Assembly: GCA_022651385.1 (NCBI GenBank)
Contig: JALCQR010000006.1
Location: forward strand, 1-64,000
Length of the DNA stretch: 64,000 nucleotides
DNA from: Clostridia bacterium
GTDB lineage: Bacteria > Bacillota > Clostridia > Lachnospirales > Anaerotignaceae
Reading direction: 5' to 3'
In this document: one piece after another, positions 196 through 41,384 of the stretch
How positions within the stretch are numbered: the first letter of the stretch is position 1
Layout of the letters: every line of letters begins with the position of its first letter
Position numbers and translations under genes: made by a program
Notes under the pieces: generated by a model
Database searches by the model: none
What the model was told of the DNA's origin: nothing
Seen by the model: only the letters and a program-made list of their open reading frames with translations

Positions 196-1677
196 TTACA
201 GCAATATACAAATTAATCCGCCGTTGCCCTCATTAATAATTTTTTCAAGAGTTGCCCTGAGTTTTTCCTGAGCATCCTGAGGCATTGCGTAAAGCCTGCT
301 GTTTATTCCTTCTGTACACAATGAATCAAGTGTTCTGCCGAATAAATTAAGCTGCCATACTTTTTCCGGTGACGACTCGTAATCATTTTTGAGGTTTGAC
401 ATAAATTCTTTTGTCTGCTCCTCACTGCCTATAATCGGGCTCACTTCGGAATCAACGTCGGTCTTAATTATGTGGAAAGACTTGCCTTTTGCTTTAAGTT
501 TAACACCGTACCGCTGTCCCTGTTTATACATCTGCGGAGTTTGAAGCTCAATATCCTCTTTATCAGGAAATACTATTCCATATCCCTTGCTTTCTGCGTC
601 AGACATAGCTTTCTCAATTCTGCTGTATGTATTTCTCTTGGCCGACAGTTCCTTAAGAAGCGACATAAGCTCGTAATCGTCTTTAATCTCACTTCCAGAT
701 GTTTCACTCACTACTTTATAAAATAGCCCGTCATCAAGGGCGGTGTCTATCCAAGCACTGCCTGTACCCATATCAATTTTTTCGGTATAGGCTTTCTTAA
801 TATTTGGATTTGAAACAAGAGTGTCGCAGCATGCCTTTATATCGCTTACTTTATTTGCTTTATTTACTATATCTTTAAGCGCTGATACAAGACTTGCTTT
901 TATATCATTGTCATAATCAAGAGTGTCAATCCATTTTGGAAAATCAATATTAATTTCTCTGATAGGAAATTCTTCAAGAATAATTTCCATTATTTTTGAA
1001 ATATCTTCCGTTTTAAGCTGAGCACAGTTTACAGCCATTACCGGCACATCATAAGTATTTTTAATTTCGTCTTTAAGCTCTTCAGTTTCAGCATCATAAG
1101 GGTGAACAGAATTTAAAAGCACAATAAAAGGCTTTCCTATATCCTTTAGTTCCGTAATCACTCTTTTTTCAGCCGGAACATAGCTTTCTCTCGGAATTTC
1201 CGTAATGCTTCCGTCGGTTGTAACCACAATTCCTATTGTTGAATGTTCTTTTATTACTTTTTCGGTCCCCATCTCGGCAGCTTCCTCAAAAGGCATTGGT
1301 GAACTGCTCCAAGGAGTATTTACCATCCTCGGCTCATCACCGTTCATATGTCCTTCTGCCCCGTTTACAACATAGCCGACGCAATCAATTAATCTTACAT
1401 TAAGGTCGGCATTGTTGTCGCCCACTGTAATTTTAACCGGCTCATTCGGTATAAATTTTGGTTCAGTTGTCATTATGGTTTTTCCCGACGCACTTTGCGG
1501 AAGTTCGTCTTTTGCACGTATCCTTGAATTTTCGTCTTTAATATTTGGCAAAACAAGAGTATCCATAAAACGTTTTATAAAAGTTGATTTGCCAGTACGT
1601 ACAGCGCCAATAACGCCTATGTAAATATTTCCGTCCGTTCTCTTTGCCATATCTTCATATATGTCATACCCGGTCAT
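196..1677 (-). CDS. spoIVA: Stage IV sporulation protein A (spore coat basement ATPase)
   Basis: SpoIVA is the ATPase that polymerises on the outer forespore surface and forms the platform on which coat proteins assemble; cortex formation also depends on it. The 493-residue length matches the family (about 492). A Walker A motif GAVRTGKST lies at residues 24-32, close to the GPVRTGKST form of Bacillus, and the C-terminus ends in the hydrophobic GGLICILL typical of the family. The ATG is preceded by AGGGAGGAAG. The gene stands alone between its own terminator and a promoter resembling the sigma-E class, which fits mother-cell expression. Family membership is clear from the whole sequence; coat function is inferred from the family. 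It is the strongest sign in the window that the organism makes endospores. Confidence 0.96.
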   Translation of the reverse strand: MTGYDIYEDMAKRTDGNIYIGVIGAVRTGKSTFIKRFMDTLVLPNIKDENSRIRAKDELPQSASGKTIMTTEPKFIPNEPVKITVGDNNADLNVRLIDCVGYVVNGAEGHMNGDEPRMVNTPWSSSPMPFEEAAEMGTEKVIKEHSTIGIVVTTDGSITEIPRESYVPAEKRVITELKDIGKPFIVLLNSVHPYDAETEELKDEIKNTYDVPVMAVNCAQLKTEDISKIMEIILEEFPIREINIDFPKWIDTLDYDNDIKASLVSALKDIVNKANKVSDIKACCDTLVSNPNIKKAYTEKIDMGTGSAWIDTALDDGLFYKVVSETSGSEIKDDYELMSLLKELSAKRNTYSRIEKAMSDAESKGYGIVFPDKEDIELQTPQMYKQGQRYGVKLKAKGKSFHIIKTDVDSEVSPIIGSEEQTKEFMSNLKNDYESSPEKVWQLNLFGRTLDSLCTEGINSRLYAMPQDAQEKLRATLEKIINEGNGGLICILL

Positions 1678-30243: not shown

Positions 30244-31302
30244 TTAATCTTTTTTCTTTCCGAATATCATACGTCCTGCTGCTGTTTGAAGAACACTTGT
30301 AACAGTTACATTAATAGTCTCGCCAATAAATTTGTTTCCACCATCTACAACAATCATTGTTCCGTCATTTAGATAAGCAACTCCTTGTCCATTTTCTTTT
30401 CCGTTTTTGATTATTGTAACAGTCATTTCCTCCCCAGGGAGCACAACAGGCTTTATGGCATTAGAAAGCTCATTTATATTAAGTACCATTACACCCTGAA
30501 ACTCAGCCACCTTGTTTAAATTATAGTCGTTTGTTACAACAAAGGCATCCATTTTTTGAGCCATTTTTAAAAGTTTTGAATCAACCTCAAGGCGTTCTTT
30601 ACAGTTAAAATCCACAATTTCCACACTTACTGTAAGTTGTTTTTGTATTTCGTTAAGTATATCGAGGCCTCTCCTGCCACGATTTCTTTTAAGTGAGTCA
30701 GATGAATCGGCAATGTGGCGCAGCTCTTCAAGAACGAAATTGGGAATTATAATTTTTCCCTCTATAAATCCGGTTTTTAATAAATCAAGTATTCTTCCAT
30801 CAATTATTACACTGGTATCAAGAATTTTAGGTTTTCCGTATGTATTATTTTTACCTATTTTTGAATTTTGTATGATTCCATCAAACCCAATTTCATCTTT
30901 TTTTCTTCTGGCCACCCTATATCCGAGAAAGCCAAGCACAAGGTTTAAAATTACAACAATACAAGAACCTATAAACCCATACTTACTAATTGGAATACCA
31001 ATAAGATTAGCAATTATAAGACCGGCCATTATTCCAAAAATACTTGCAAGCAATTCTTTAAGACTCATATTTGAGAGATTTGCTTCTGCTTTTTCCATTT
31101 TGTTTAAAATAGCATCTGAAATAAAAGGGGCAAAAGTAAAGAAAAATATTATTCCCAAAACTATTCCGCCTACTATAGGAACAGAGGCAGGAATATATTG
31201 TCCAATTTTTTGGATGTTCGCATAATATACCAATCTAAACAAAAAACCAAAAGCAACACCTACAGCCAAGCTTATAATTAATTCTAAAAGTCTTTTAAGC
31301 AC
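30244..31302 (-). CDS. yacL: PIN and TRAM domain membrane protein (YacL family)
   Basis: Four N-terminal membrane helices (within about residues 1-130) are followed by a PIN-type ribonuclease fold (ILDTSVIIDGRI near 160-171, TNDYNLNKVAE near 260) and a C-terminal TRAM domain. The cellular substrate of this family is not settled. The GTG at 31302 is chosen because AAAGGAGGG lies 7 nt upstream, giving 352 residues. It follows carD but a strong terminator separates them. Confidence 0.9.
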   Translation of the reverse strand: MLKRLLELIISLAVGVAFGFLFRLVYYANIQKIGQYIPASVPIVGGIVLGIIFFFTFAPFISDAILNKMEKAEANLSNMSLKELLASIFGIMAGLIIANLIGIPISKYGFIGSCIVVILNLVLGFLGYRVARRKKDEIGFDGIIQNSKIGKNNTYGKPKILDTSVIIDGRILDLLKTGFIEGKIIIPNFVLEELRHIADSSDSLKRNRGRRGLDILNEIQKQLTVSVEIVDFNCKERLEVDSKLLKMAQKMDAFVVTNDYNLNKVAEFQGVMVLNINELSNAIKPVVLPGEEMTVTIIKNGKENGQGVAYLNDGTMIVVDGGNKFIGETINVTVTSVLQTAAGRMIFGKKKD

Positions 31303-31342
31303 AAGTTTTCCCTCCTTTCTTAATATAATATCACAAAACTTA

Positions 31343-31389
31343 AAAAAATAAATCACAAATCGAAACTTAAAAAAATTAATTTGTGATTT
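31343..31389 (-). terminator. Terminator between carD and yacL
   Basis: AAATCACAAAT and ATTTGTGATTT pair perfectly around a 17-nt AT-rich loop and are followed by a T-rich run on the minus strand. Confidence 0.75.
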
Positions 31390-31407
31390 TATTTATATTA
31401 TATAATA

Positions 31408-31887
31408 TCAGCAAAACAGCTCTTTAGCAAGATACTCTTCAGCTTTATTCTTTTCTATTTTACACGAAAATATGACTTCGCTCAACACAATCTGCCTTGC
31501 ATTGTTTAACATCTTTTTCTCGGCACCGGAAAGCCCCCTGCGCCTTTCTCTTAAACATAAGGCTCTTGCCACCTCGGCAACACCCTCAAGAGTGCCCCTT
31601 TTTATTTTCTCAAGATTTTCTTTATATCTCAGATTCCAATTACTCTGAATTACTACAGGAACTGAAGCAACTTTTTTTATTGATTCTATTACTTTTTCTT
31701 TAGGTAGTATTTTTCGTATTCCTACTCTATCCGCTTTTGAAGCACCAACTTTAATTTTTAGGTTGCCGTTCGGAATGCGGATCACATAATGCTTTATTTC
31801 AGCACCATCTACCTCTTCGATTTCTATTGCTTCAACTACTCCCGCACCATACATCGGGTATACAATCGTTTCACCAATATCAAACAT
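31408..31887 (-). CDS. carD: CarD/CdnL-family RNA polymerase-binding regulator
   Basis: Binds the RNA polymerase beta subunit and stabilises open complexes at promoters. The N-terminal Tudor-like RNAP-interaction domain is clear (FDIGETIVYPMYGAGVVEAI), and the helical DNA-contacting domain follows with SNWNLRYKENLEK. Length 159 is normal. The ATG at 31887 is preferred to a TTG one codon upstream because of spacing from AAGGAG. A TTGACA, 17 nt, TAAAAT promoter lies upstream. Confidence 0.93.
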   Translation of the reverse strand: MFDIGETIVYPMYGAGVVEAIEIEEVDGAEIKHYVIRIPNGNLKIKVGASKADRVGIRKILPKEKVIESIKKVASVPVVIQSNWNLRYKENLEKIKRGTLEGVAEVARALCLRERRRGLSGAEKKMLNNARQIVLSEVIFSCKIEKNKAEEYLAKELFC

Positions 31888-31962
31888 CAAAACGCACTCC
31901 TTTTTTCTAATTTACATTTTTTTCTTCTAATCTCTTTATATCCAGTTTAAAGCAAATTTATA

Positions 31963-31991
31963 ATTTTATCAACTCTTTTTTTAAATGTCAA
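31963..31991 (-). promoter_or_regulatory. Sigma-A promoter of carD
   Basis: TTGACA (31991-31986), 17 nt, TAAAAT (31968-31963) on the minus strand. Confidence 0.8.
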
Positions 31992-32033
31992 TACAAAATT
32001 AACAAAAAATTAATTATTTCGAGTTTAATTCTA

Positions 32034-32062
32034 TTGACACCAACTTTTAAAAATGATAAAGT
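32034..32062 (+). promoter_or_regulatory. Sigma-A promoter of degV
   Basis: TTGACA (32034-32039), 17 nt, TAAAGT (32057-32062); the carD and degV promoters are divergent. Confidence 0.7.
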
Positions 32063-32113
32063 ATGTAATGATTATAAGACATAGTTTTTAAAACAAGAAA
32101 TGGAGGTATTGAA

Positions 32114-33001
32114 ATGTCTTATTTTGAGATATTTACAGATGGTGCTGCAGACATTCCTTTGAAAACCGCTAAAAGTAAAGGCATTAATATAATTCCTTTT
32201 TACATTTCATTTGACGGCAACACGTATTTAAAAGAACTTAAAGATCTCTCGCTTGAAATATTTTACAATAAAATTTTAGATGAGGGGCTTTTTCCAAAGA
32301 CATCATTGCCTTCCGTTAATGATTATATAGATGCTTTTACACCTACGCTTAAAAACGGCAAAGATGTAATATGTTTTACTATTACACATACGTTAAGCGG
32401 TTCCGTACAGTCAGCTCGTGCAGCAGCAGATATTTTAAATGAAAAGTACAGTTCAAAAATATACGTTATCGATTCTTTTTTGGCAACTGGTGCTCAGCAG
32501 CTTTTAATATATGAAGCTATGCGTATGAGAGATTTGGGGTTGTCAGCCGAAATAGCCTTTAAGTTATGTGAGAAGTGTAAAAAAACCGGCAGAATTATGT
32601 TTATAGTTGGTTCTTTGGCTTATTTTGAAAAAGGAGGACGTATAGGAAAACTTGCCGCCCTTTCCGGCAGTATTTTAAAAATAAAGCCTCTTATTGAGTT
32701 AAAAAATGCCGAGGTAAATGTAGGCGGTGTAGCAAGAAGCCGCAAAAACGGCTTAAAGAAACTTGTTGAAATGACAAGCAAATATTTTTCAAAATATAAT
32801 GAGTTTGCGAAAGATTATACTTTTATTGCCGGCACAACAAATAACTGGAATGAAATGCCGGAATTTGAAGATATACTGTGTGAAAGCATTGTACCAAGAA
32901 GCAATCTTCTGTCTCCCTTTCAGATTGGAGCAACAATTGCAGCTCACACAGGCCCGGATACTACAGGAATATGTTTTTTAAAAAAATATGACCGTTTATA
33001 A
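32114..33001 (+). CDS. DegV family fatty-acid-binding protein (FakB-like)
   Basis: DegV/FakB proteins hold a fatty acid so that FakA can phosphorylate it for phospholipid synthesis. The N-terminal EIFTDGAADIPL, the THTLSGS loop near residue 93 and the GGVARSRKNGLKKL segment near 200 follow the family. Length 295 is normal. No fakA gene is in the window. The ATG follows TGGAGG, and the gene has its own promoter and terminator. Confidence 0.93.
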   Translation: MSYFEIFTDGAADIPLKTAKSKGINIIPFYISFDGNTYLKELKDLSLEIFYNKILDEGLFPKTSLPSVNDYIDAFTPTLKNGKDVICFTITHTLSGSVQSARAAADILNEKYSSKIYVIDSFLATGAQQLLIYEAMRMRDLGLSAEIAFKLCEKCKKTGRIMFIVGSLAYFEKGGRIGKLAALSGSILKIKPLIELKNAEVNVGGVARSRKNGLKKLVEMTSKYFSKYNEFAKDYTFIAGTTNNWNEMPEFEDILCESIVPRSNLLSPFQIGATIAAHTGPDTTGICFLKKYDRL

Positions 33002-33046
33002 AAATACCCGAACATTGAACTTACATCAATGTTCGGGTATTTTACT
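33001..33046 (+). terminator. Terminator of degV
   Basis: AAAATACCCGAACATTGA pairs with TCAATGTTCGGGTATTTT, followed by ACTTTTC. The perfect stem has A- and T-tracts on both sides, so it can also end the convergent hydrogenase operon. Confidence 0.85.
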
Positions 33047-33085
33047 TTTCCTGGCTCTATTAATTATACATAGTAGAGATTTTAT

Positions 33086-34573
33086 TTATTTATTTATATT
33101 ATAATTCCTTTCAAGATTAACACTCTCAAGATCAAATACTCTGACAGCCTGCACACTTGTCTCTTCTTTAGAAAGTTTTCCGTATTTATCAACTTCCGTA
33201 ACATCTTTAGGTCCGTGTGAAAGAGAAGCAGCGCCTCCTATACATCCGCATTTGCATGCCATGCCCTCTATCATATTAGCCGTAAGTCTGCCGAAAGAAG
33301 CAACTTTCATGGTTTTTACAACTTCACTGAGCCCGTCACATTTAATCGGCTTCATATTAGCATTTATACCCAAGTCTTTGTTGGCCTGCATAACAGCTGT
33401 GGAAACTCCGCCGCTTCTTGCAAAAATCCTGCCGAAATATGAAGCATTGTCAAGTACGCTTTCCTCACATTTGGTTAAGTCGATTTCCATAGCGTCAAGT
33501 ATTGACCTAAGCTCTTCAAAAGTCATTACATAGTCTACATCGCCTTTAAGGTCAGCCTCATTTATTTCCATTTTTTTAGCTGTACATGGCCCTATAAACA
33601 CTATTCTGGCATTGTCATCCATTTGTCTTATTATTCTGGCAAGTGCAATCATAGGCGATACAGTGCCCGAAACATGGCTCATAAGCTCCGGATAGTTCTT
33701 TTCAATATACTTTACAAAAGCCGGACAGCAAGATGTCGTCATCCATTTTCTCTCTTCAATGGTATCGGCAAACTCTCTGGCCTCATGGCATGATACAATG
33801 TCAGCCCCGAGAGCCACTTCAAGACATTCGGCAAAACCAATTTTTCTTATGCCGGTTATAACCTGTTCTATTTTTGCCTCTGTAAACTGACTTGAAATTG
33901 ACGGCGCCACAATTGCGTATACTTTATATTTTGTATTGCCCTCAGAGTCTTTTATAAGCTGAAGTATGTCAAGAATAAAGGATTTATCCACGATTGCTCC
34001 AAACGGACACTGGTAAACACATGAACCGCAGGAAACACATTTATCATAATCAATGAATGCCTTTTTTTCGTCGTCAATATATATAGCCTTGGCATTGCAT
34101 GAGCGAAGGCAAGGCCTTTGTACATCGCTTATGGCATTAAACGGGCATGCGTCATGACACTTTCCGCATTCAATACACATTTCCTGATTTATATATGCTC
34201 TTTGCCCAACAACAGAAATGGCTCCCCTTGGACATACTTCCTGGCACTTATGAGCCAAACAGCCTCTGCATGCTTCTGTTACAACAAAACGGTCTACCGG
34301 ACACTCATCACATGCCGTACGAAGTATCTGAATTACATTATTGTCTTTAAGAGGCTCAATCACAATTTTTGCTCTTTCGCCTATAATGTGTCTTTCTTTG
34401 TATATACAGCATCTTGTAATCGGCTTAGGTCCCGGAATTATTGTTTTTTCTATATCGTCAAGATGTTCGCTAACATTTTCTCCCGCAATAAAACGCCTCG
34501 CCAATTCTTTGTTGACTAAGTATTTAGTATATTGAACATTGCTTTCAAATTTGCTTTTTGAATACATTCCCAT
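33086..34573 (-). CDS. [FeFe]-hydrogenase family protein with ferredoxin domains
   Basis: A 495-residue protein with two or more ferredoxin-like [4Fe-4S] domains (CIECGKCHDACP and CVSCGSCVYQCP) and a hydrogenase H-cluster domain. The three H-cluster motifs are TTSCCPAF near residue 280, GPCTAKKME near 329 and EGMACKCGC near 436; all the cysteines expected to bind the cluster are present. The L1 motif has TSCCPA and L2 begins IGPC rather than MPC, so it departs from classical HydA1. It is the last gene of the HydS-phosphatase run. The ATG at 34573 is chosen from a GAGG site; an upstream TTG overlaps the phosphatase gene by 4 nt and is also possible. Whether it makes H2 or senses redox state is unknown. 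Confidence 0.85.
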   Translation of the reverse strand: MGMYSKSKFESNVQYTKYLVNKELARRFIAGENVSEHLDDIEKTIIPGPKPITRCCIYKERHIIGERAKIVIEPLKDNNVIQILRTACDECPVDRFVVTEACRGCLAHKCQEVCPRGAISVVGQRAYINQEMCIECGKCHDACPFNAISDVQRPCLRSCNAKAIYIDDEKKAFIDYDKCVSCGSCVYQCPFGAIVDKSFILDILQLIKDSEGNTKYKVYAIVAPSISSQFTEAKIEQVITGIRKIGFAECLEVALGADIVSCHEAREFADTIEERKWMTTSCCPAFVKYIEKNYPELMSHVSGTVSPMIALARIIRQMDDNARIVFIGPCTAKKMEINEADLKGDVDYVMTFEELRSILDAMEIDLTKCEESVLDNASYFGRIFARSGGVSTAVMQANKDLGINANMKPIKCDGLSEVVKTMKVASFGRLTANMIEGMACKCGCIGGAASLSHGPKDVTEVDKYGKLSKEETSVQAVRVFDLESVNLERNYNINK

Positions 34574-34593
34574 AATATTTTCATCCTCATTAA

Positions 34594-35760
34594 TCAAATA
34601 TAAATTATATTGACTTTTTTGCCCATATTTTCAACAACGGAAGCAAGCTCTTTTATCTGATTCATTTTAAACTGGAAATCCATAGGGTAGTTTCCTCTCT
34701 GATGAACAGGGTTAACCGCCTGCCCAACCCAAAGATTCAGATTATCACATCTTTCTATAAGCAAAGTTGCAAGCATTGCGGCAGCGTTTTTTTCCTGCAT
34801 ATTTTTTTCGGCTTTTCTGTGCATAGACACACTCATAAAGTCCTTCATAATATCAAGTGCCTTGCCTATGGTGATAACTCCTTCGGTAACCAGTTCTATT
34901 CCTTTAATTATTCCCACAGGAGGAATATCAACAGTCATTGTAGAAAGATCGACTTCCATTTCAACTCCAAGCGTTCTGGCAACAATTGAAGATGATGTGC
35001 CTCCGCAAACTACAACTTTTCCTTCTGCCTGAAGTATTTTTTTTATTATTTCATAATCTTTGTCAGGATCTTTAGGCGGCCCTGTAAAAAGATTAATTGT
35101 CTCCTGTTTTCTTATTTTAACAGCAATTGCAGTTGCGTCGTCCCCGGCTTCGTTTTCATAATATTCACGGCATTTATCAAGAACAGCGTCGACAACTTGT
35201 TTTGATTCAGCATTTTTATCTATCTCCTGCAGAAATTTACATATGTTTTTCCATTGCCACCCAAGAGCAAGACTGTGTCCTACTCCGGCATGTATCACTC
35301 CGTCGCTTACTGCCACAAGCAGGCTGTCTTTGTCAAGAGTAAAACTTGATTCATAAATCTGTTTATTATTTATCGTCTTTTTTACTTTTTTAAGCTCAAC
35401 TCTTTCGCCGTTTTTTACAACAAACACTGACGGAGAATCAAACTCGGCAATATATGCCCTTCCGTCATTAAATACTCTTATAATAGTAAAAGTGGAATAC
35501 GCAAGATGTCTTTCCCTGCAAATAGGAAGTGTGTGCACTATAGTATCAACGGTTTCTTCAATTGTAGCCCCTTCTTTAAGCATGGTAGCTGCAATTTTTG
35601 ATGTAAGTGTTGCAAGTATGTTGGCCTTAACACCGCTACCAAGACCATCGGAGAGCACAAGTATTTTGCTGTCAACAAGATTTATGTATTCCACATGGTC
35701 GCCGCACAGTTCCTCGCCGGCTTTGTTTATGCTTTTGGAAGCTGCATCTATAAAATACAC
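34594..35760 (-). CDS. PPM/SpoIIE-type serine phosphatase of the hydrogenase-sensor cluster
   Basis: A 388-residue soluble protein. Residues 1-215 have the PP2C/SpoIIE layout with metal-binding motifs LSDGLGSG (about 36-43), AVSDGV (about 151) and GDDATAIAV (about 206), so it should dephosphorylate a Ser/Thr-phosphorylated partner. The C-terminal 170 residues do not match a domain I recognise; they contain a VCGGTSSSIVA segment. It sits between two [FeFe]-hydrogenase-type genes with a 3-nt gap upstream. An anti-sigma or anti-anti-sigma target is a reasonable guess from SpoIIE and RsbU, but no such gene is adjacent. Confidence 0.85.
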   Translation of the reverse strand: MYFIDAASKSINKAGEELCGDHVEYINLVDSKILVLSDGLGSGVKANILATLTSKIAATMLKEGATIEETVDTIVHTLPICRERHLAYSTFTIIRVFNDGRAYIAEFDSPSVFVVKNGERVELKKVKKTINNKQIYESSFTLDKDSLLVAVSDGVIHAGVGHSLALGWQWKNICKFLQEIDKNAESKQVVDAVLDKCREYYENEAGDDATAIAVKIRKQETINLFTGPPKDPDKDYEIIKKILQAEGKVVVCGGTSSSIVARTLGVEMEVDLSTMTVDIPPVGIIKGIELVTEGVITIGKALDIMKDFMSVSMHRKAEKNMQEKNAAAMLATLLIERCDNLNLWVGQAVNPVHQRGNYPMDFQFKMNQIKELASVVENMGKKVNIIYI

Positions 35761-35763
35761 CTG

Positions 35764-37476
35764 TCACTCATCCTCTTCTTTCATGACAATTTCTTTAAGC
35801 CTGTTTAAAACAACCTTTGTTTCCGCTGTTGTTTCACCAAGAACACTTGCTATTTCCTGTGCAACCCTCATCTGTTTTTCAATTACGTTTTGAGCAGTAT
35901 AAACCGTGTGCATTCTAAGTTTTGATATTTCTTTTTTCTGTTTTTCCTCATCTGTTATATCACGCATGGAAACAAATATTTCTCCCCCGTCGATATAAAC
36001 AAAATTTGCAAGCACCGTAAGTTTTTGTTTTTCAATGTAAATCTTTATATTTATGTAATCTCGCTTGATATTCAATGCCTCTTTGCATATTTTGTCGTCA
36101 ATGCCAAGCTCGGTTACGTATTTTCCAACAATTTCAAATTCGTTAAAGCCAAGTTTTCTAAGTCCGACCGGATTAAGTTTAATCACATTCAAATTTTTGT
36201 CAAGCAGAAACAGTATGTCCACCGAATTTAAAAATATAACATCTCTTTGTATTTTTGCCTTCTGTTTCATATACTGCCAGCATGTTTCATATGTGTCCAT
36301 TCCTTCGTAAACAGCCTGCGCTTTTTTTCGGCATGTATCATATCCGCATCCGCCGCAGTTATATTCATCAGCTTTTGATTTTTTACCCATTTTGCGAAGA
36401 ATTTCAGTTATTTCTTTTTCTGAAGCTTTGTTTATTTTTACAGGATTTGCTCTAAATTCAAATGACGAGTCAATTTTGTCCCAGTCAATTTGCTTTCCTC
36501 TTGTACCCCAGCCATGCTCAGCAAAAGCTTTTATTTTTTGCCTGCGGCAATAAAGGCCGTTTGTATTTTTTGGTATAAAAGGACCGTTAATACAGCTTTC
36601 AATACAGGCAGATATGCCTACAAAACATTTTTCGAGAGTATTATTTTCCATGCTTTCAAAAAGCAGTTTAACATTTTCAATTCCCTGTACTCTTGCATAA
36701 TCGTAGCCGTTATTGCATACAGCTTCCCTTATAACCTGCCAGATATCTCCGGCTATTGAATAATTTTCGCCTGATTTGCCGGCAGCTCTGTCAGGGTATG
36801 TAGGCTCAAGAGTATTAATATCAATTCCGCTTGAACGCATTATACGCATAATCTCAACAAGTGTAATATGAGAGTTCATAACCGTATCATCGTTTTTTGG
36901 AAAGGTTTCATATTTTTTGCTAAGGCACGGACCTATATAAACAGTGTGGCTGTTTTTTTCCTCAGCTTTAACAGCTCGTCCCAAAAGTATCATAGGCGGT
37001 GCTACTGGCAGAAGATATTTTTCAAGCTGCGGGTGATACTTTTTTATAAAAATATATATCGCCGGACATGTGCTTGTTATAAAGTACTTTTGTCTGCCGG
37101 CATTTTCATTTATATATTTTATGTATAGCTCCTCAGCTCTTTCTGACGCGACAGCTATTTCCTGAATTGAGTCAAAGCCAAGTTTGCGCAGTCCTGTAAT
37201 AAATTTCCCCGGCTCTTTAAATATGCCAAGATATGCCGAGTCAAGACAAGCTATAGTTTTTGTACCTGAATTAATTTTATTTTTGACAGTATCAATATCG
37301 TTTGCCATGTTTCTGGCATGTCTGGGACACACTTTAAAGCAATGTCCGCATGCTATACATTTATCCTCGTCAATCTGCGCCTCATTATTTACAAAACGTA
37401 TTGCCTTAACAGGACATTCACGTACACATTTATTGCAGTTGCTGCAATTTGAAACCGTAAAATTAAAAAGTCTCAT
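35764..37476 (-). CDS. Sensory-type [FeFe]-hydrogenase with PAS domain (HydS-like)
   Basis: Domains in order: two [4Fe-4S] ferredoxin motifs (Cys11-Cys21 and Cys40-Cys50), an H-cluster domain, a CGGCGYDTC [4Fe-4S] module (Cys374, 377, 382 and Cys399), a PAS domain (about 410-515) and a coiled-coil tail. This is the architecture of group C sensory hydrogenases. The H-cluster motifs are TSTCP (134-138), GPCLSKK (182-188) and ACIESC (Cys291, Cys295). In TSTCP the first Cys of the canonical TSCCP, the proton-relay residue, is Thr while the cluster ligand Cys137 remains. A weak or non-catalytic, signalling role follows by inference. The next gene is a phosphatase. The tail lacks a kinase or GGDEF output domain. 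Confidence 0.88.
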   Translation of the reverse strand: MRLFNFTVSNCSNCNKCVRECPVKAIRFVNNEAQIDEDKCIACGHCFKVCPRHARNMANDIDTVKNKINSGTKTIACLDSAYLGIFKEPGKFITGLRKLGFDSIQEIAVASERAEELYIKYINENAGRQKYFITSTCPAIYIFIKKYHPQLEKYLLPVAPPMILLGRAVKAEEKNSHTVYIGPCLSKKYETFPKNDDTVMNSHITLVEIMRIMRSSGIDINTLEPTYPDRAAGKSGENYSIAGDIWQVIREAVCNNGYDYARVQGIENVKLLFESMENNTLEKCFVGISACIESCINGPFIPKNTNGLYCRRQKIKAFAEHGWGTRGKQIDWDKIDSSFEFRANPVKINKASEKEITEILRKMGKKSKADEYNCGGCGYDTCRKKAQAVYEGMDTYETCWQYMKQKAKIQRDVIFLNSVDILFLLDKNLNVIKLNPVGLRKLGFNEFEIVGKYVTELGIDDKICKEALNIKRDYINIKIYIEKQKLTVLANFVYIDGGEIFVSMRDITDEEKQKKEISKLRMHTVYTAQNVIEKQMRVAQEIASVLGETTAETKVVLNRLKEIVMKEEDE

Positions 37477-37722
37477 TTAATCTACTTTGCTCCTAATTGT
37501 CTCATCAAAAAATTTATCTGTAGTTTCCGGCAATACAGTGTATATCACATCATCAAATTTAACGCAAACGGCGCCTTCGCAATTCCCAAGACAAAACGCC
37601 GCCTTAACTTTAAGTTTGTCATTGTACCCGTTTGAGTTAACCAATTCGTTTAATCTGTTTATTATGTCATATGAGTTTTTAAGATGACATACGCTTCCTA
37701 TACAAACTTGTATATCTTTCAT
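37477..37722 (-). CDS. Thioredoxin-like [2Fe-2S] ferredoxin (NuoE/HydC-like)
   Basis: An 81-residue protein holding four cysteines (Cys7, Cys12, Cys44, Cys48) in the spacing of the 24-kDa NuoE [2Fe-2S] domain. It would pass electrons to or from the sensor encoded next, whose start codon immediately follows its own stop. The N-terminal helical part of full-length NuoE is missing, which is normal for these single-domain relatives. GAGGTG lies 5 nt before the ATG. Confidence 0.85.
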   Translation of the reverse strand: MKDIQVCIGSVCHLKNSYDIINRLNELVNSNGYNDKLKVKAAFCLGNCEGAVCVKFDDVIYTVLPETTDKFFDETIRSKVD

Positions 37723-37736
37723 TTTTTCACCTCACT

Positions 37737-38318
37737 TCATTTAAGGCAGCCGTCATTATATGCACGAGTTATTACATCTTCCATATATTCTCTTATTTTA
37801 TCAGGTCCTGACATTGTTATCTTGTTTCTGTTTAATACCTGTTCTTTCTTAATATTTCGATTTTTCCAAGATATACCGCCTAAGGCATCAATAAGCATTG
37901 TCGGCTGCATTCTGTCCATTATATTACAGAATTTTGCTTCTTTTGTTTTACATTCCTCAAACTCTATCCAAAGCTTTTTAAGTTTGTCACATTGGTCCTT
38001 AGGCAAAATCCTGTATAGTTTGTCGGCTGCCGCTTTTTCTCTTTCTTCCTTGCTTTTCATGCCTTCAGTATCATATGCCGGAGTGTCGCCTGCATATATT
38101 TCCACAGCGTCGTGAAGCAGCATCATTTCAAGCACTTTAAGCAAGTTATCCTTGTCAAAATATTCCGAAAGCACAACAGCCATAACGGCCGCGTGAAAAC
38201 TGTGCTCAGCATCATTTTCGTGTCTGCTCATATCAGACAATAAATTTTCACGCCAAATTTTCTTTTCCTTGTCAATTTCCGTAAGAAAACGAATTTGTTT
38301 TTTAAAACGCTCATCCAT
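37737..38318 (-). CDS. HD-domain hydrolase (YfbR/5'-nucleotidase-like)
   Basis: A 193-residue metal-dependent phosphohydrolase. The HD motif is in LLHDAVEIYAGDTP near residue 85, with upstream ligands in SRHENDAEHSF. The YfbR-type family removes phosphate from deoxyribonucleoside monophosphates, but this sequence could act on another phosphorylated substrate. The ATG at 38318 has GAGGC upstream; a 26-residue extension would be hydrophobic and out of family. It is 15 nt upstream of the [2Fe-2S] gene, so it may be the first gene of the hydrogenase-sensor transcript. Confidence 0.8.
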   Translation of the reverse strand: MDERFKKQIRFLTEIDKEKKIWRENLLSDMSRHENDAEHSFHAAVMAVVLSEYFDKDNLLKVLEMMLLHDAVEIYAGDTPAYDTEGMKSKEEREKAAADKLYRILPKDQCDKLKKLWIEFEECKTKEAKFCNIMDRMQPTMLIDALGGISWKNRNIKKEQVLNRNKITMSGPDKIREYMEDVITRAYNDGCLK

Positions 38319-38462
38319 TTTTAGCCTCTTAATTATAAATCCTATAAACGCAAACAGGCAGCTATAAGTCGCCTTAGAGTGTCCAAAAATCATCACATAA
38401 AGTTTGAAACCAAAGATGTCTTGGAAGTCCGAGGCGCAAAACAGCCGCCTATACAGACATTT

Positions 38463-39728
38463 TTAATATTTCTTTATACCTATATCATGTCTAAAATGTT
38501 TCTTTTCAAAGTTGACTTTATCAACAGCGGCATATGCTGTTTCTCTTGCATCATCAATGTCTTTTCCTAAAGCAGTTATGCCTAAAATTCTTCCGCCGTT
38601 TGTAACAAATTTTCCGTCTTTAATAGCTGTTCCGGCATGAAAAATAACAATGTTTTTATCTTTTTCTGCTTCTTCAAGACCGGTTATTTCATATCCCTTT
38701 TTATATTCTACAGGATATCCTCCGCTTGCGAGCACTACGCATACACAGGCATTGTCGTCCCATTCGATATTAATTTTATCAAGTGTCCCGTCAACACAAT
38801 GCTCCATTATATCCAAAAGGTCTGTTTTAAGACGCGGAAGTATTACCTGTGTTTCAGGGTCACCAAATCTGGCATTGTATTCTATAACCTTCATACCGTC
38901 TTTTGTAAGCATAAGTCCGAAATACAAGATTCCCACAAAAGTACGTCCCTCTTCGGCCATAGCATCAACAGTCGGCTGAAAAATCGTTTTCATGCATTCG
39001 TCATTAAGTTCTTTAGTGTAAATACGGCTTGGCGAAAATGTTCCCATACCGCCTGTATTAAGCCCTTCGTCATTATCATATGCCCTTTTATGGTCCTGAG
39101 CAGATACCATAGGCACAACAGTTTTTCCATCGCAAAACGATAGTACAGAAACTTCAGGTCCTGACAGACATTCTTCTATTACAACTTTGTTTCCGGACTT
39201 TCCGAATTTCTTGTCAACCATTATCTCGTCAAGTGCCGCAACGGCTTCATCATGACTCTGGCATATAAGCACTCCTTTGCCGAGAGCAAGGCCGTCAGCT
39301 TTTACAACAATAGGTGCAGGCTGACTTAAAACATATGCCTTCGCCTTATCATAATCATCAAATATTTCATATTTAGCAGTAGGAATACCATACTTTTTCA
39401 TAAGTTCTTTTGAAAAAGCCTTGCTTCCTTCTATAACAGCCGCATTTTTTCTCGGTCCGAACACTTTAAGTCCTTCGGCTTCAAAAGCGTCAACAATACC
39501 GGCTACAAGCGGGTCGTCCATACCGATTATTGTAAAATCTATTTTTTGCTCTTTTGCAAAAGCAATAAGTTTTTCCATTTCCATTGCGCCTATATGTACA
39601 CACTCGGCGTCTTTGCTTATTCCGGCATTTCCCGGAGCACAATAAATTTTGTCAATTTTCGGGCTTTGTTTAAGCTTCCAAACAATGGCGTGTTCTCTTC
39701 CGCCGCCTCCAACAACCAATACTTTCAT
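38463..39728 (-). CDS. purD: Phosphoribosylamine-glycine ligase
   Basis: GAR synthetase, second step of purine synthesis. The N-terminal GGGGREHAI motif is at residues 7-15, and the ATP-grasp signature GPEVSVLSFCDG and RFGDPETQ are present. Length 421 is normal. Its start is directly after the purN stop, with AGGAGG inside the end of purN. There is no purH in this purM-purN-purD run. Confidence 0.97.
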   Translation of the reverse strand: MKVLVVGGGGREHAIVWKLKQSPKIDKIYCAPGNAGISKDAECVHIGAMEMEKLIAFAKEQKIDFTIIGMDDPLVAGIVDAFEAEGLKVFGPRKNAAVIEGSKAFSKELMKKYGIPTAKYEIFDDYDKAKAYVLSQPAPIVVKADGLALGKGVLICQSHDEAVAALDEIMVDKKFGKSGNKVVIEECLSGPEVSVLSFCDGKTVVPMVSAQDHKRAYDNDEGLNTGGMGTFSPSRIYTKELNDECMKTIFQPTVDAMAEEGRTFVGILYFGLMLTKDGMKVIEYNARFGDPETQVILPRLKTDLLDIMEHCVDGTLDKINIEWDDNACVCVVLASGGYPVEYKKGYEITGLEEAEKDKNIVIFHAGTAIKDGKFVTNGGRILGITALGKDIDDARETAYAAVDKVNFEKKHFRHDIGIKKY

Positions 39729-39729
39729 T

Positions 39730-40353
39730 TTATATCCTCCTTACTTTATTTCCCGAAACAGTAATTTTCCCCTCTGATATAAGCTTTATAGCCTCTGGTA
39801 AAATTTTCCATTCAGCCTGTTCCATAACTCTTTTTTGAAGTATTTCAGGTGTGTCGTTATCCTCAACAGCCACTGCTTTTTGAAGAATTATAGGCCCGCC
39901 GTCAGTTTCGTCGTTCACAAAATGAGCAGTCGCTCCCGTTATTTTAACGCCTTTTTTAAGCACAGCTTCATGCACCTTAAGACCATAAAAACCGTCGCCG
40001 CAAAACGAAGGTATCAAAGCCGGGTGAATGTTTATTATTTTGTTTTTATACTTTTCCGTAAATTCTTTAGAAAGTACAGTCATAAATCCGGCAAGCACAA
40101 TAAGCTCAACACCGCAGCTGTCAATATGATTTTCCATGGCTTTCATATATCCGTCAAAATCAGCATAGTCATGCTTTCTTATACATACAGCGTTAATGTT
40201 ATGCTTTTTGGCTCTTTCAAGAGCATAGGCGTTTGGATTGCTGCTTATAACTGTAACAATTTCAGCCTTTGATATATATCCGCTTTCTATATTGTCAATT
40301 ATTGCCTGAAGGTTTGTACCGCCTCCCGAAACGAGAACGCCTATTTTAAGCAT
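39730..40353 (-). CDS. purN: Phosphoribosylglycinamide formyltransferase
   Basis: Transfers a formyl group from 10-formyl-THF to GAR. The GGGTNLQAI phosphate-binding loop is at residues 10-18, and the folate-site motif LAGFMTVLS, the catalytic Asn-His-Asp set ([10 protein letters not shown]...DGGPII) follow. Length 207 is normal. It overlaps purM by 13 nt. Confidence 0.96.
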
Positions 40354-41384
40354 ATTTCTGCCTCTTTTTCCGGGTTCTTTGTGATTTTGCCTATAACGTA
40401 GGCTTTTTCGCCCATTTCATCACATGCCTTAAGTATTTTACCTGTGTTTTCTTTGTCTGCCACAAGCACCATTCCGATACCCATATTAAACGTATTATAC
40501 ATACTCATTCTTTCAATGCCGCCTTTTTCTTCCATAATCTTAAATATAGGAAGTATAGGCCATGTACCTTCCTCTATAGAGATACAAAGTCCCTTTCCCT
40601 TAGGGAGACATCTTGGTGTATTTTCAATAAAACCGCCGCCTGTTATATTGCTTATGCCTTTTATTTCAGCCTTTTTTATAAGAGAAAGTATTTCTTTTAC
40701 ATAAATTTTAGTAGGAGTTAAAAGAGCCTCTCCAATAGTCATTCCAAGCTCTTTGTTATATTCTTTAGCCGTTTTTTTAATAGGTTCAAAAATTTTTCTT
40801 ACAAGAGAATATCCGTTTGAGTGTATGCCGCTTGAAGGAAGCCCTATAAGGTTGTCTCCTTCAACTATTTTTTCGCCGTTTATCATGGCCTTTCTGTCAA
40901 CTATGCCAACAGCAAAGCCTGCCATGTCATATTCGTCAATAGGATAAAACCCCGGCATTTCAGCCGTTTCACCGCCTATTAAAGCACATCCGCTTTGGCG
41001 GCAGCCGTCGGCAACACCGCTAACTATTTCAGCTATTTTTTCCGGCACATTTTTTCCGCATGCAATGTAATCAAGGAAAAACAAAGGCTGAGCGCCGTTG
41101 CAGATTATATCGTTTACACACATAGCAACACAGTCAATGCCTACCGTATTATGCTTGTCCTGAACAAATGCAAGTTTAAGTTTCGTTCCCACACCGTCTG
41201 TTCCGGAAATGAGAACCGGTTCATCCATACCTTTAAATCCGGCAACAGAAAAAAGGCCGCCGAAACCTCCTATATCAGCAAGCACTTCCGGACGGAATGT
41301 ACTTTTAACGTGCTCCCTCATAAGCTTAACAGCTTTATAGCCGGCTTCAACATCTACCCCAGCATTTTTATAATCAAGACCCAT
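40341..41384 (-). CDS. purM: Phosphoribosylformylglycinamidine cyclo-ligase
   Basis: AIR synthetase, fifth step of purine synthesis. The signature [16 protein letters not shown] near residue 58 and [10 protein letters not shown] near 138 are intact. The ATG at 41384 follows GGAGGAG and gives 347 residues; a 12-residue extension has no ribosome site. It is the first gene of purM-purN-purD. Confidence 0.97.

Follow-up and report, generated by a model that had tools for sequence, protein, structure and literature searches.

Sensory-type [FeFe]-hydrogenases encoded beside a phosphatase have been described before. The hfs operon of Thermoanaerobacterium saccharolyticum encodes HfsB, an [FeFe]-hydrogenase with a PAS domain, HfsC, a serine phosphatase, and HfsD (PMC11837493, PMC5707799), which has been called a group B enzyme (PMC8924675). 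Deletions of hfsA or hfsB raised ethanol and deletions of hfsC or hfsD did not, which was read as regulation, and the hfsB deletion alone raised hydrogenase activity (PMC5707799). The C. thermocellum genes Clo1313_1796-1793 were called slightly different in the same paper. In Ruminococcus albus, a group C sensory hydrogenase, a Ser/Thr phosphatase and a ferredoxin-only hydrogenase are encoded together; the sensory hydrogenase and phosphatase cluster fell 111-fold in co-culture, which the authors tie to the H2 level, and a sensor-to-phosphatase reading was already stated for HydS/HydA2 (PMC6776011). Deletions in the hfs operon redirect fermentation to ethanol (PMC5707799). We analyzed a locus of this kind, built around a HydS-like sensory hydrogenase and a SpoIIE-type phosphatase, in a stretch of 64,000 nucleotides (the window) from a Clostridia bacterium of the Anaerotignaceae (contig JALCQR010000006.1).

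On the minus strand of the window, the gene order is purM, purN, purD (41420-38463), an HD gene, a [2Fe-2S] protein gene, hydS, the phosphatase gene, and a group B hydrogenase gene. A first-pass annotation of the same DNA had proposed a cluster of five genes beginning with HD. All five open reading frames lie where it placed them, and each matches its named family in Pfam or NCBIfam. The locus matches the published hfsBCD arrangement: hfsABCD has the same order of HydS-like protein, serine phosphatase and monomeric [FeFe]-hydrogenase. It may differ in the gene before HydS, which here encodes an 81-residue [2Fe-2S] protein that may or may not correspond to HfsA, said to match hydrogenase large subunits in part (PMC11837493). 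It also differs in that the module comes after purD and the HD gene. The R. albus hydrogenase is group A1 (PMC6776011), whereas ours is group B by TIGR04105, and the R. albus cluster holds an alcohol/aldehyde dehydrogenase where our direct neighbors are degV and HD/purD. Both the sensor-phosphatase reading and the second [FeFe]-hydrogenase as a member, which the annotation had singled out, were already in print for T. saccharolyticum and R. albus. What appears to be new is the close pairing of a HydS helix with the phosphatase, an undescribed domain and its detached form, and the finding that no STAS protein is a regular partner. The unit should best be read as four genes ([2Fe-2S] protein, HydS, phosphatase, group B hydrogenase), not five, and it likely constitutes a hydrogen-responsive regulatory module of the hfsBCD type together with its target enzyme.

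A sensory-type hydrogenase paired with a phosphatase

In HydS, two N-terminal [4Fe-4S] sites and the H-domain are followed by a C-terminal Cx2Cx4Cx16C motif, then by a PAS-like stretch, and last by a terminal helix (Table 1). As the annotation had stated, its Pfam architecture includes no output domain of its own; the [4Fe-4S] motif between H-domain and PAS and the strongly conserved terminal helix had been missed. The cysteine ligands of the H-cluster (C137, C184, C291, C295) are invariant in 21/21 sequences. In an alignment to CpI, T136, G182 and S289 replace C299, M353 and M497, a non-prototypical second shell. The Thermotoga maritima sensor TmHydS (group C / M2f) likewise has an H-domain, a C-terminal [4Fe-4S] cluster, and Ser and Gly in place of M497 and M353 (PMC8163306). 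At the C299 position it carries Ala (PMC10055695) where HydS has Thr, and the PAS match is weak here. With all three of these positions changed, as they also are in TmHydS, HydS looks more like a sensor than a fast catalyst. Its H-cluster ligands, second shell and C-terminal Fe-S motif agree with the group C (M2f) sensory hydrogenases. The C-terminal Fe-S region scores 31 bits against PF04060; TamHydS carries the same Cx2Cx4Cx16C motif, which in M2f enzymes is placed between H-domain and PAS (PMC8163306).

We compared the locus with a relative set of 60 genomes (our own and 59 relatives) and a phylum-wide set of 398 genomes. HydS is found in 26 of the 59 relatives, intact in 25 and divided between two frames in the other; the phosphatase directly follows it in 26/26, one phosphatase being cut by a contig end. 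The neighborhood comparison suggested by the annotation supports the phosphatase beside HydS but not the HD gene as a member. Phylum-wide, HydS was searched at E <= 1e-60 with at most three candidates scored per genome. A listed match reaching model position 555 or beyond was called a short HydS (105 genomes), and a pair was counted when the phosphatase was on the same strand, no more than 1.5 kb downstream. Among the matches listed there are 127 short HydS (the true number is thus at least 127), and 122 of them have the phosphatase directly downstream; in both genome sets the adjacency goes beyond chance. The other five are one tandem HydS (L145) and four HydS at contig ends (L146-L149), three of which (L146, L147, L149) still show the start of the phosphatase gene.

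Long HydS-like proteins, whose matches end before the terminal helix, served as the control. None of the 23 among the matches listed is followed by such a phosphatase on its own strand in the next 6 kb; by eye, only two share a contig with a phosphatase match, more than 100 kb away. Instead, 20 of them (L151-L155, L157-L161, L163-L168, L170-L173) carry GAFTGA and Walker A motifs after the C-terminal Fe-S motif, and all four that were scanned with Pfam are sigma-54 activators. The remaining three (L156, L162, L169) end in a histidine-kinase-like ATPase pattern. The terminal helix follows the same division. The exact GET[TA]AETK motif of the helix is carried by 40, and a variant of it by 11, of the 51 distinct short HydS in the fetched loci (counting open frames of 450 residues or more), whereas a helix of this type is found in 0/23 of the listed long fusions. 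These counts support the phosphatase beside HydS, which the annotation had taken to supply its output, as its regular partner. Since helix and phosphatase are present together and are both missing from HydS-like proteins with fused outputs, the two would stand in for a fused output module. The link between them is one of co-occurrence, from which a physical contact may be inferred. We found no earlier description of this near-exclusive pairing, as it appears from sequence, in the literature searched.

Three of the 11 helix variants (L110, L113, L119) are strongly diverged: this group has a different, MAxxMAKFLGExTAxGE-like terminal helix together with divergent phosphatases, and offers a natural test of helix-phosphatase co-variation. 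The tandem locus (L145:3288-8252, genome G416) is arranged HydS-2Fe2S-HydS-phosphatase, that is, two sensors for one phosphatase. The fusion of HydS to a sigma-54 activator would be a one-protein switch from H2 to transcription. We found no papers on HydS with sigma-54 outputs in the literature searched, though such fusions may already be in print.

A conserved second domain in the phosphatase

The phosphatase gene (35760-34594, minus strand) encodes two domains, the second of which had escaped the first-pass annotation. In the catalytic domain, the metal-site residues D21, D38, G39, D153, D207 and D208 are invariant in 27/27 phosphatases and the enzyme should thus be active, judging from its residues. 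VIA-align superposes it on SpoIIE (5ucg_A) with Z 24.9 and 2.6 A over 213 residues, and gives Z 24.9 also for 3pu9_A. The catalytic domain and metal residues are common to SpoIIE/RsbU, by alignment to SpoIIE; in contrast to these proteins, the catalytic domain here is N-terminal and followed by the undescribed domain, and the module holds no STAS gene.

The motifs GPP, GGT, TEG, NxxHQ and GK of the C-terminal domain are invariant in 20 sequences, and seven positions remain invariant across 49 more diverse ones. AlphaFold2 models the domain with a predicted local distance difference test score of 91.8. No Pfam or NCBIfam family matches it above cut-off. DUF436 is matched weakly in 5/27 phosphatases (best E 0.0016) and 3/49 domain sequences (best E 4.9e-4), and TIGR01440 in 4/27 phosphatases (best E 0.0016), a weak but repeated hint. 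A PDB profile search returned 3trj at E 0.007; Foldseek matches were weak and Rossmann-like, the best E being 6.7e-4 with a probability of 0.6, and included methylglyoxal synthase (probability 1.0, E 2e-3). The top 15 VIA-align rows (Z 8.8-6.6, root-mean-square deviation 3.0-4.5 A) are chains of complex I NuoG/NDUFS1 type, formylmethanofuran dehydrogenase or Fhc, and formate dehydrogenase, which share the molybdopterin-oxidoreductase fold. Because Z values near 8 lie within the VIA-align background, we leave the domain without a fold assignment.

A profile of the domain matches 122 of the 398 phylum genomes in 147 rows, two split genes (G174, G398) being counted twice. In 129 of the 147 the frame spans 375-460 residues, so that the domain is joined to the phosphatase. 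Twenty-three rows do not adjoin a listed HydS. Of these, 13 were inspected individually: 11 do adjoin HydS (L134-L144), L150 is cut by a contig end, and L133 lacks a HydS neighbor. The other ten comprise three free-standing copies, three apparent contig breaks or fragments (G306, G445, G089), and G147, G182, G237 and G442, which stayed outside the individual inspection. The L133 phosphatase belongs to G064, a genome without a full-length HydS among the matches listed; its stretch after the SDG motif, where the first switch helix is expected, looks shortened.

The free-standing form (156-159 residues) occurs in three genomes of one genus (L101-L103), which also carry the HydS-phosphatase pair. 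There its gene comes after NuoE-, NuoF- and HydA-like genes. Pfam confirmed all three in L101, where HydA is of group A (TIGR02512 470.7, cut-off 405.95) and the free-standing protein itself has no family match in Pfam or NCBIfam scans. From the gene set, NuoE-NuoF-HydA would form a bifurcating hydrogenase. As the free-standing copies follow hydrogenase genes, the domain follows hydrogenases even without the phosphatase. HydS-phosphatase pairs, too, often adjoin HydA-like hydrogenase genes (e.g., L105, L107, L112 and L116, by tblastn). No description of the domain or its free-standing form was found in the literature searched, which covered few subscription papers.

The domain is a likely specificity element and may decide the substrate of the phosphatase. 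A bolder proposal is that it docks the hydrogenase, or reads a redox cofactor, so that the HydS-switched phosphatase would act on hydrogenase complexes post-translationally and not via a sigma-factor pathway, the detached copy doing a related job at the ends of HydA-type (NuoE-NuoF-HydA) operons. We hold this to be rather unlikely.

Signal, target and rival readings

Taken as a hydrogen-responsive module, the locus could work as follows. HydS would bind H2, the signal we infer, at an H-cluster with a sensory-type second shell. Its state would pass through the C-terminal [4Fe-4S] cluster and the PAS-like stretch to the terminal helix, which would dock on the adjacent phosphatase and switch it. 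The phosphatase would then dephosphorylate a protein, in all likelihood one other than a dedicated STAS antagonist. The outcome would be a change, in a direction that may be either up or down, in how strongly the group B hydrogenase (HydB) is expressed or how active it is. To judge by the analogous R. albus and Thermoanaerobacterium systems, enzymes of ethanol formation and of other fermentation routes may be affected as well. The [2Fe-2S] protein probably feeds or drains HydS electrons; its gene lies upstream of hydS in 23 of the 25 relative loci with room. HydB is a candidate target by position, its gene lying downstream of the phosphatase gene in 20/25 such loci, and its H-cluster cysteines are invariant in 19 sequences. 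Group B hydrogenases are reported to be chiefly responsible for H2 production in the human gut (PMC12578642), which makes their control relevant in that setting as well.

Several points weigh against this reading. The HydS-phosphatase contact is proposed from co-occurrence, and one phosphatase of the same family (L133:5587-6726, G064) has no HydS beside it. The PAS domain claimed by the annotation is found as a PAS-like stretch, but its match of 21.7 bits falls under the Pfam curated cut-off of 27. The group B hydrogenase gene is missing after the phosphatase in 5/25 loci with room, so HydB is not the sole possible target. Finally, the literature calls H2 sensing by HydS putative (PMC8924675), and polar effects are part of some published deletions (hfsA; PMC5707799).

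We weighed the module against a partner switch, in which the phosphatase would dephosphorylate a STAS antagonist, here SpoIIAA, and H2 would feed into sigma-F and sporulation. SpoIIE and RsbU are known to act on STAS proteins (PMC11418112). This genome encodes two SpoIIE-type phosphatases (SpoIIE and the module phosphatase), one PASTA-repeat kinase of the Hanks type next to a PP2C gene, and a single STAS protein, which is SpoIIAA-like and lies beside SpoIIAB and a SigF-type sigma factor. However, this sole STAS gene is about 81 kb from the module, and neither the module nor the rest of this genome holds a dedicated STAS partner besides SpoIIAA. We tested 95 different pair-bearing genomes, selected by hand; 91 of them contain a STAS match, which would be expected anyway if most pair-bearing genomes are spore formers. 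The other four (G095, G354 and G397 of one genus, and G131) have the pair yet no STAS match, and the first three lack STAS_2 as well; the completeness of the four (98, 77, 89 and 93%, respectively) makes assembly gaps possible. With a single STAS protein here and four pair-bearing genomes without one, a dedicated STAS partner is not a regular part of the system: a dedicated STAS target is probably to be discounted, and a STAS target of any kind is probably not obligatory. As the published outputs are also fermentation genes, we consider the partner switch very unlikely. Alternatively, a single catalytic hydrogenase complex could comprise HydS, the [2Fe-2S] protein and HydB, with the phosphatase acting on it only as a local modifier. 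This reading agrees with the intact Fe-S and H-cluster ligands of HydS and with the functional HfsABC hydrogenase suggested for T. saccharolyticum (PMC13277313). It accords poorly with the replaced pocket residues C299, M353 and M497, as in the low-activity TmHydS, with the loci in which HydS and phosphatase stay together while HydB is missing, and with the increased hydrogenase activity upon deletion of hfsB alone (PMC5707799); we judge it distinctly unlikely.

According to the third rival, the HD hydrolase is the functional first member of a five-gene unit and converts the redox signal into one carried by nucleotides. Its gene is on the same strand, 14 nucleotides from the [2Fe-2S] gene, and lies directly upstream in 9/24 relative loci with room. 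We followed close HD genes (at least 45% identity) through 19 family genomes, including this one. HD is at purD in 17/19 (15 on the same strand, two convergent), the exceptions being G007, where the contig nearly ends at HD, and G023. It adjoins the 2Fe-2S/HydS genes in 10/19, and all ten are also at purD. Five purD-adjacent HD genes (three same-strand, two convergent) are in genomes without full-length HydS, and in L043 and L044 four genes separate HD from the hydS genes. In these two a single GNAT gene sits between purD and HD (GNAT match scanned in L043 only). Conversely, in L031, L033 and L034 the 2Fe-2S/HydS genes come immediately after purD and HD is missing; it is also missing from the 11 hydS loci with room that are not at purD (L047-L057). 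L031 is Candidatus Neoanaerotignum tabaqchaliae, one named relative from the contig search with the phosphatase. Because HD stays at purD with or without hydS, it is a neighbor of the purine genes, which fits its nucleotidase family: it passes the HD_3 and YfbR-like cut-offs and misses the NCBIfam equivalog PRK03826 (29.6 vs 122). The annotation's placement of HD as first member is thus not borne out, and a role for it in redox signaling appears extremely improbable. Co-transcription of HD with hydS in this genome is possible.

Taken together, these comparisons favor the four-gene regulatory module and narrow the question of how its signal is passed on to a single sensor helix and the phosphatase with which it is closely paired, with the conserved domain as the likely specificity element and the STAS hypothesis weakened. 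As a separate observation, spoIVA, spoIIAA-spoIIAB-sigF and spoIIE (window 196-1677; L129; L132) point to a spore-forming organism.

Layout of the locus

Table 1. Features of the hydS locus, in window coordinates.
Feature	Position	Strand	Basis
HydS / HfsB-like sensory [FeFe]-hydrogenase, 570 residues	35764..37476	-	PF02906, Fer4, PF04060 FeS, weak PAS_9
C-terminal [4Fe-4S] motif Cx2Cx4Cx16C of HydS (C374, C377, C382, C399)	36280..36357	-	invariant in 21/21
PAS-like stretch of HydS, residues 421-509	35950..36216	-	PF13426 (PAS_9), E 2.5e-4, 21.7 bits
Terminal helix of HydS, residues 531-567, proposed phosphatase contact	35776..35886	-	15 invariant columns in 37 (21 sequences)
SpoIIE/RsbU-type PPM phosphatase domain, residues 1-216	35113..35760	-	PF07228, 65 bits
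C-terminal domain of phosphatase, residues 217-388	34594..35112	-	conserved, no Pfam/NCBIfam model over cut-off
Thioredoxin-like [2Fe-2S] protein, 81 residues (Cx4C...Cx3C)	37477..37722	-	PF01257, 29.8 bits (cut-off 24.8)
HfsD-like group B monomeric [FeFe]-hydrogenase (HydB)	33086..34573 (ATG; frame opens at TTG 34597)	-	TIGR04105, 555.5 bits (cut-off 450)
HD_3 / 5'-nucleotidase-like gene, neighbor judged outside the module	37737..38318	-	PF13023, 148.0 bits; YfbR-like, 48.1 bits
Terminator-like hairpin between hydrogenase gene and degV, usable from both strands	33001..33043	.	18 pairs, loop 7

The tight spacing claimed by the annotation holds for the first three junctions, with gaps of 14 (HD to 2Fe-2S), 0 (2Fe-2S to HydS) and 3 nucleotides (HydS to phosphatase). 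The overlap between phosphatase and hydrogenase genes, in contrast, depends on a TTG start (34597) without an evident ribosome site; the alternative ATG at 34573, preceded by GAGGATG, has the better site and leaves a 20-nucleotide gap. The names purM, purN and purD are supported by family scans. The purD-HD intergenic region (38319-38462) folds strongly (-42.6 kcal/mol, z -3.25); apart from the copy of itself in L001, no similar sequence turned up in the window or in any fetched locus, and there was no Rfam match. There was no Rfam match at the gathering threshold anywhere in 31000-41000. On the other side of the module, degV is on the plus strand and convergent with the end of the hydrogenase gene, and the hairpin separates the two. 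The hairpin noted by the annotation is real: its RNA folds at about -25 kcal/mol, with z -9.4 on the plus strand and -7.0 on the minus strand.

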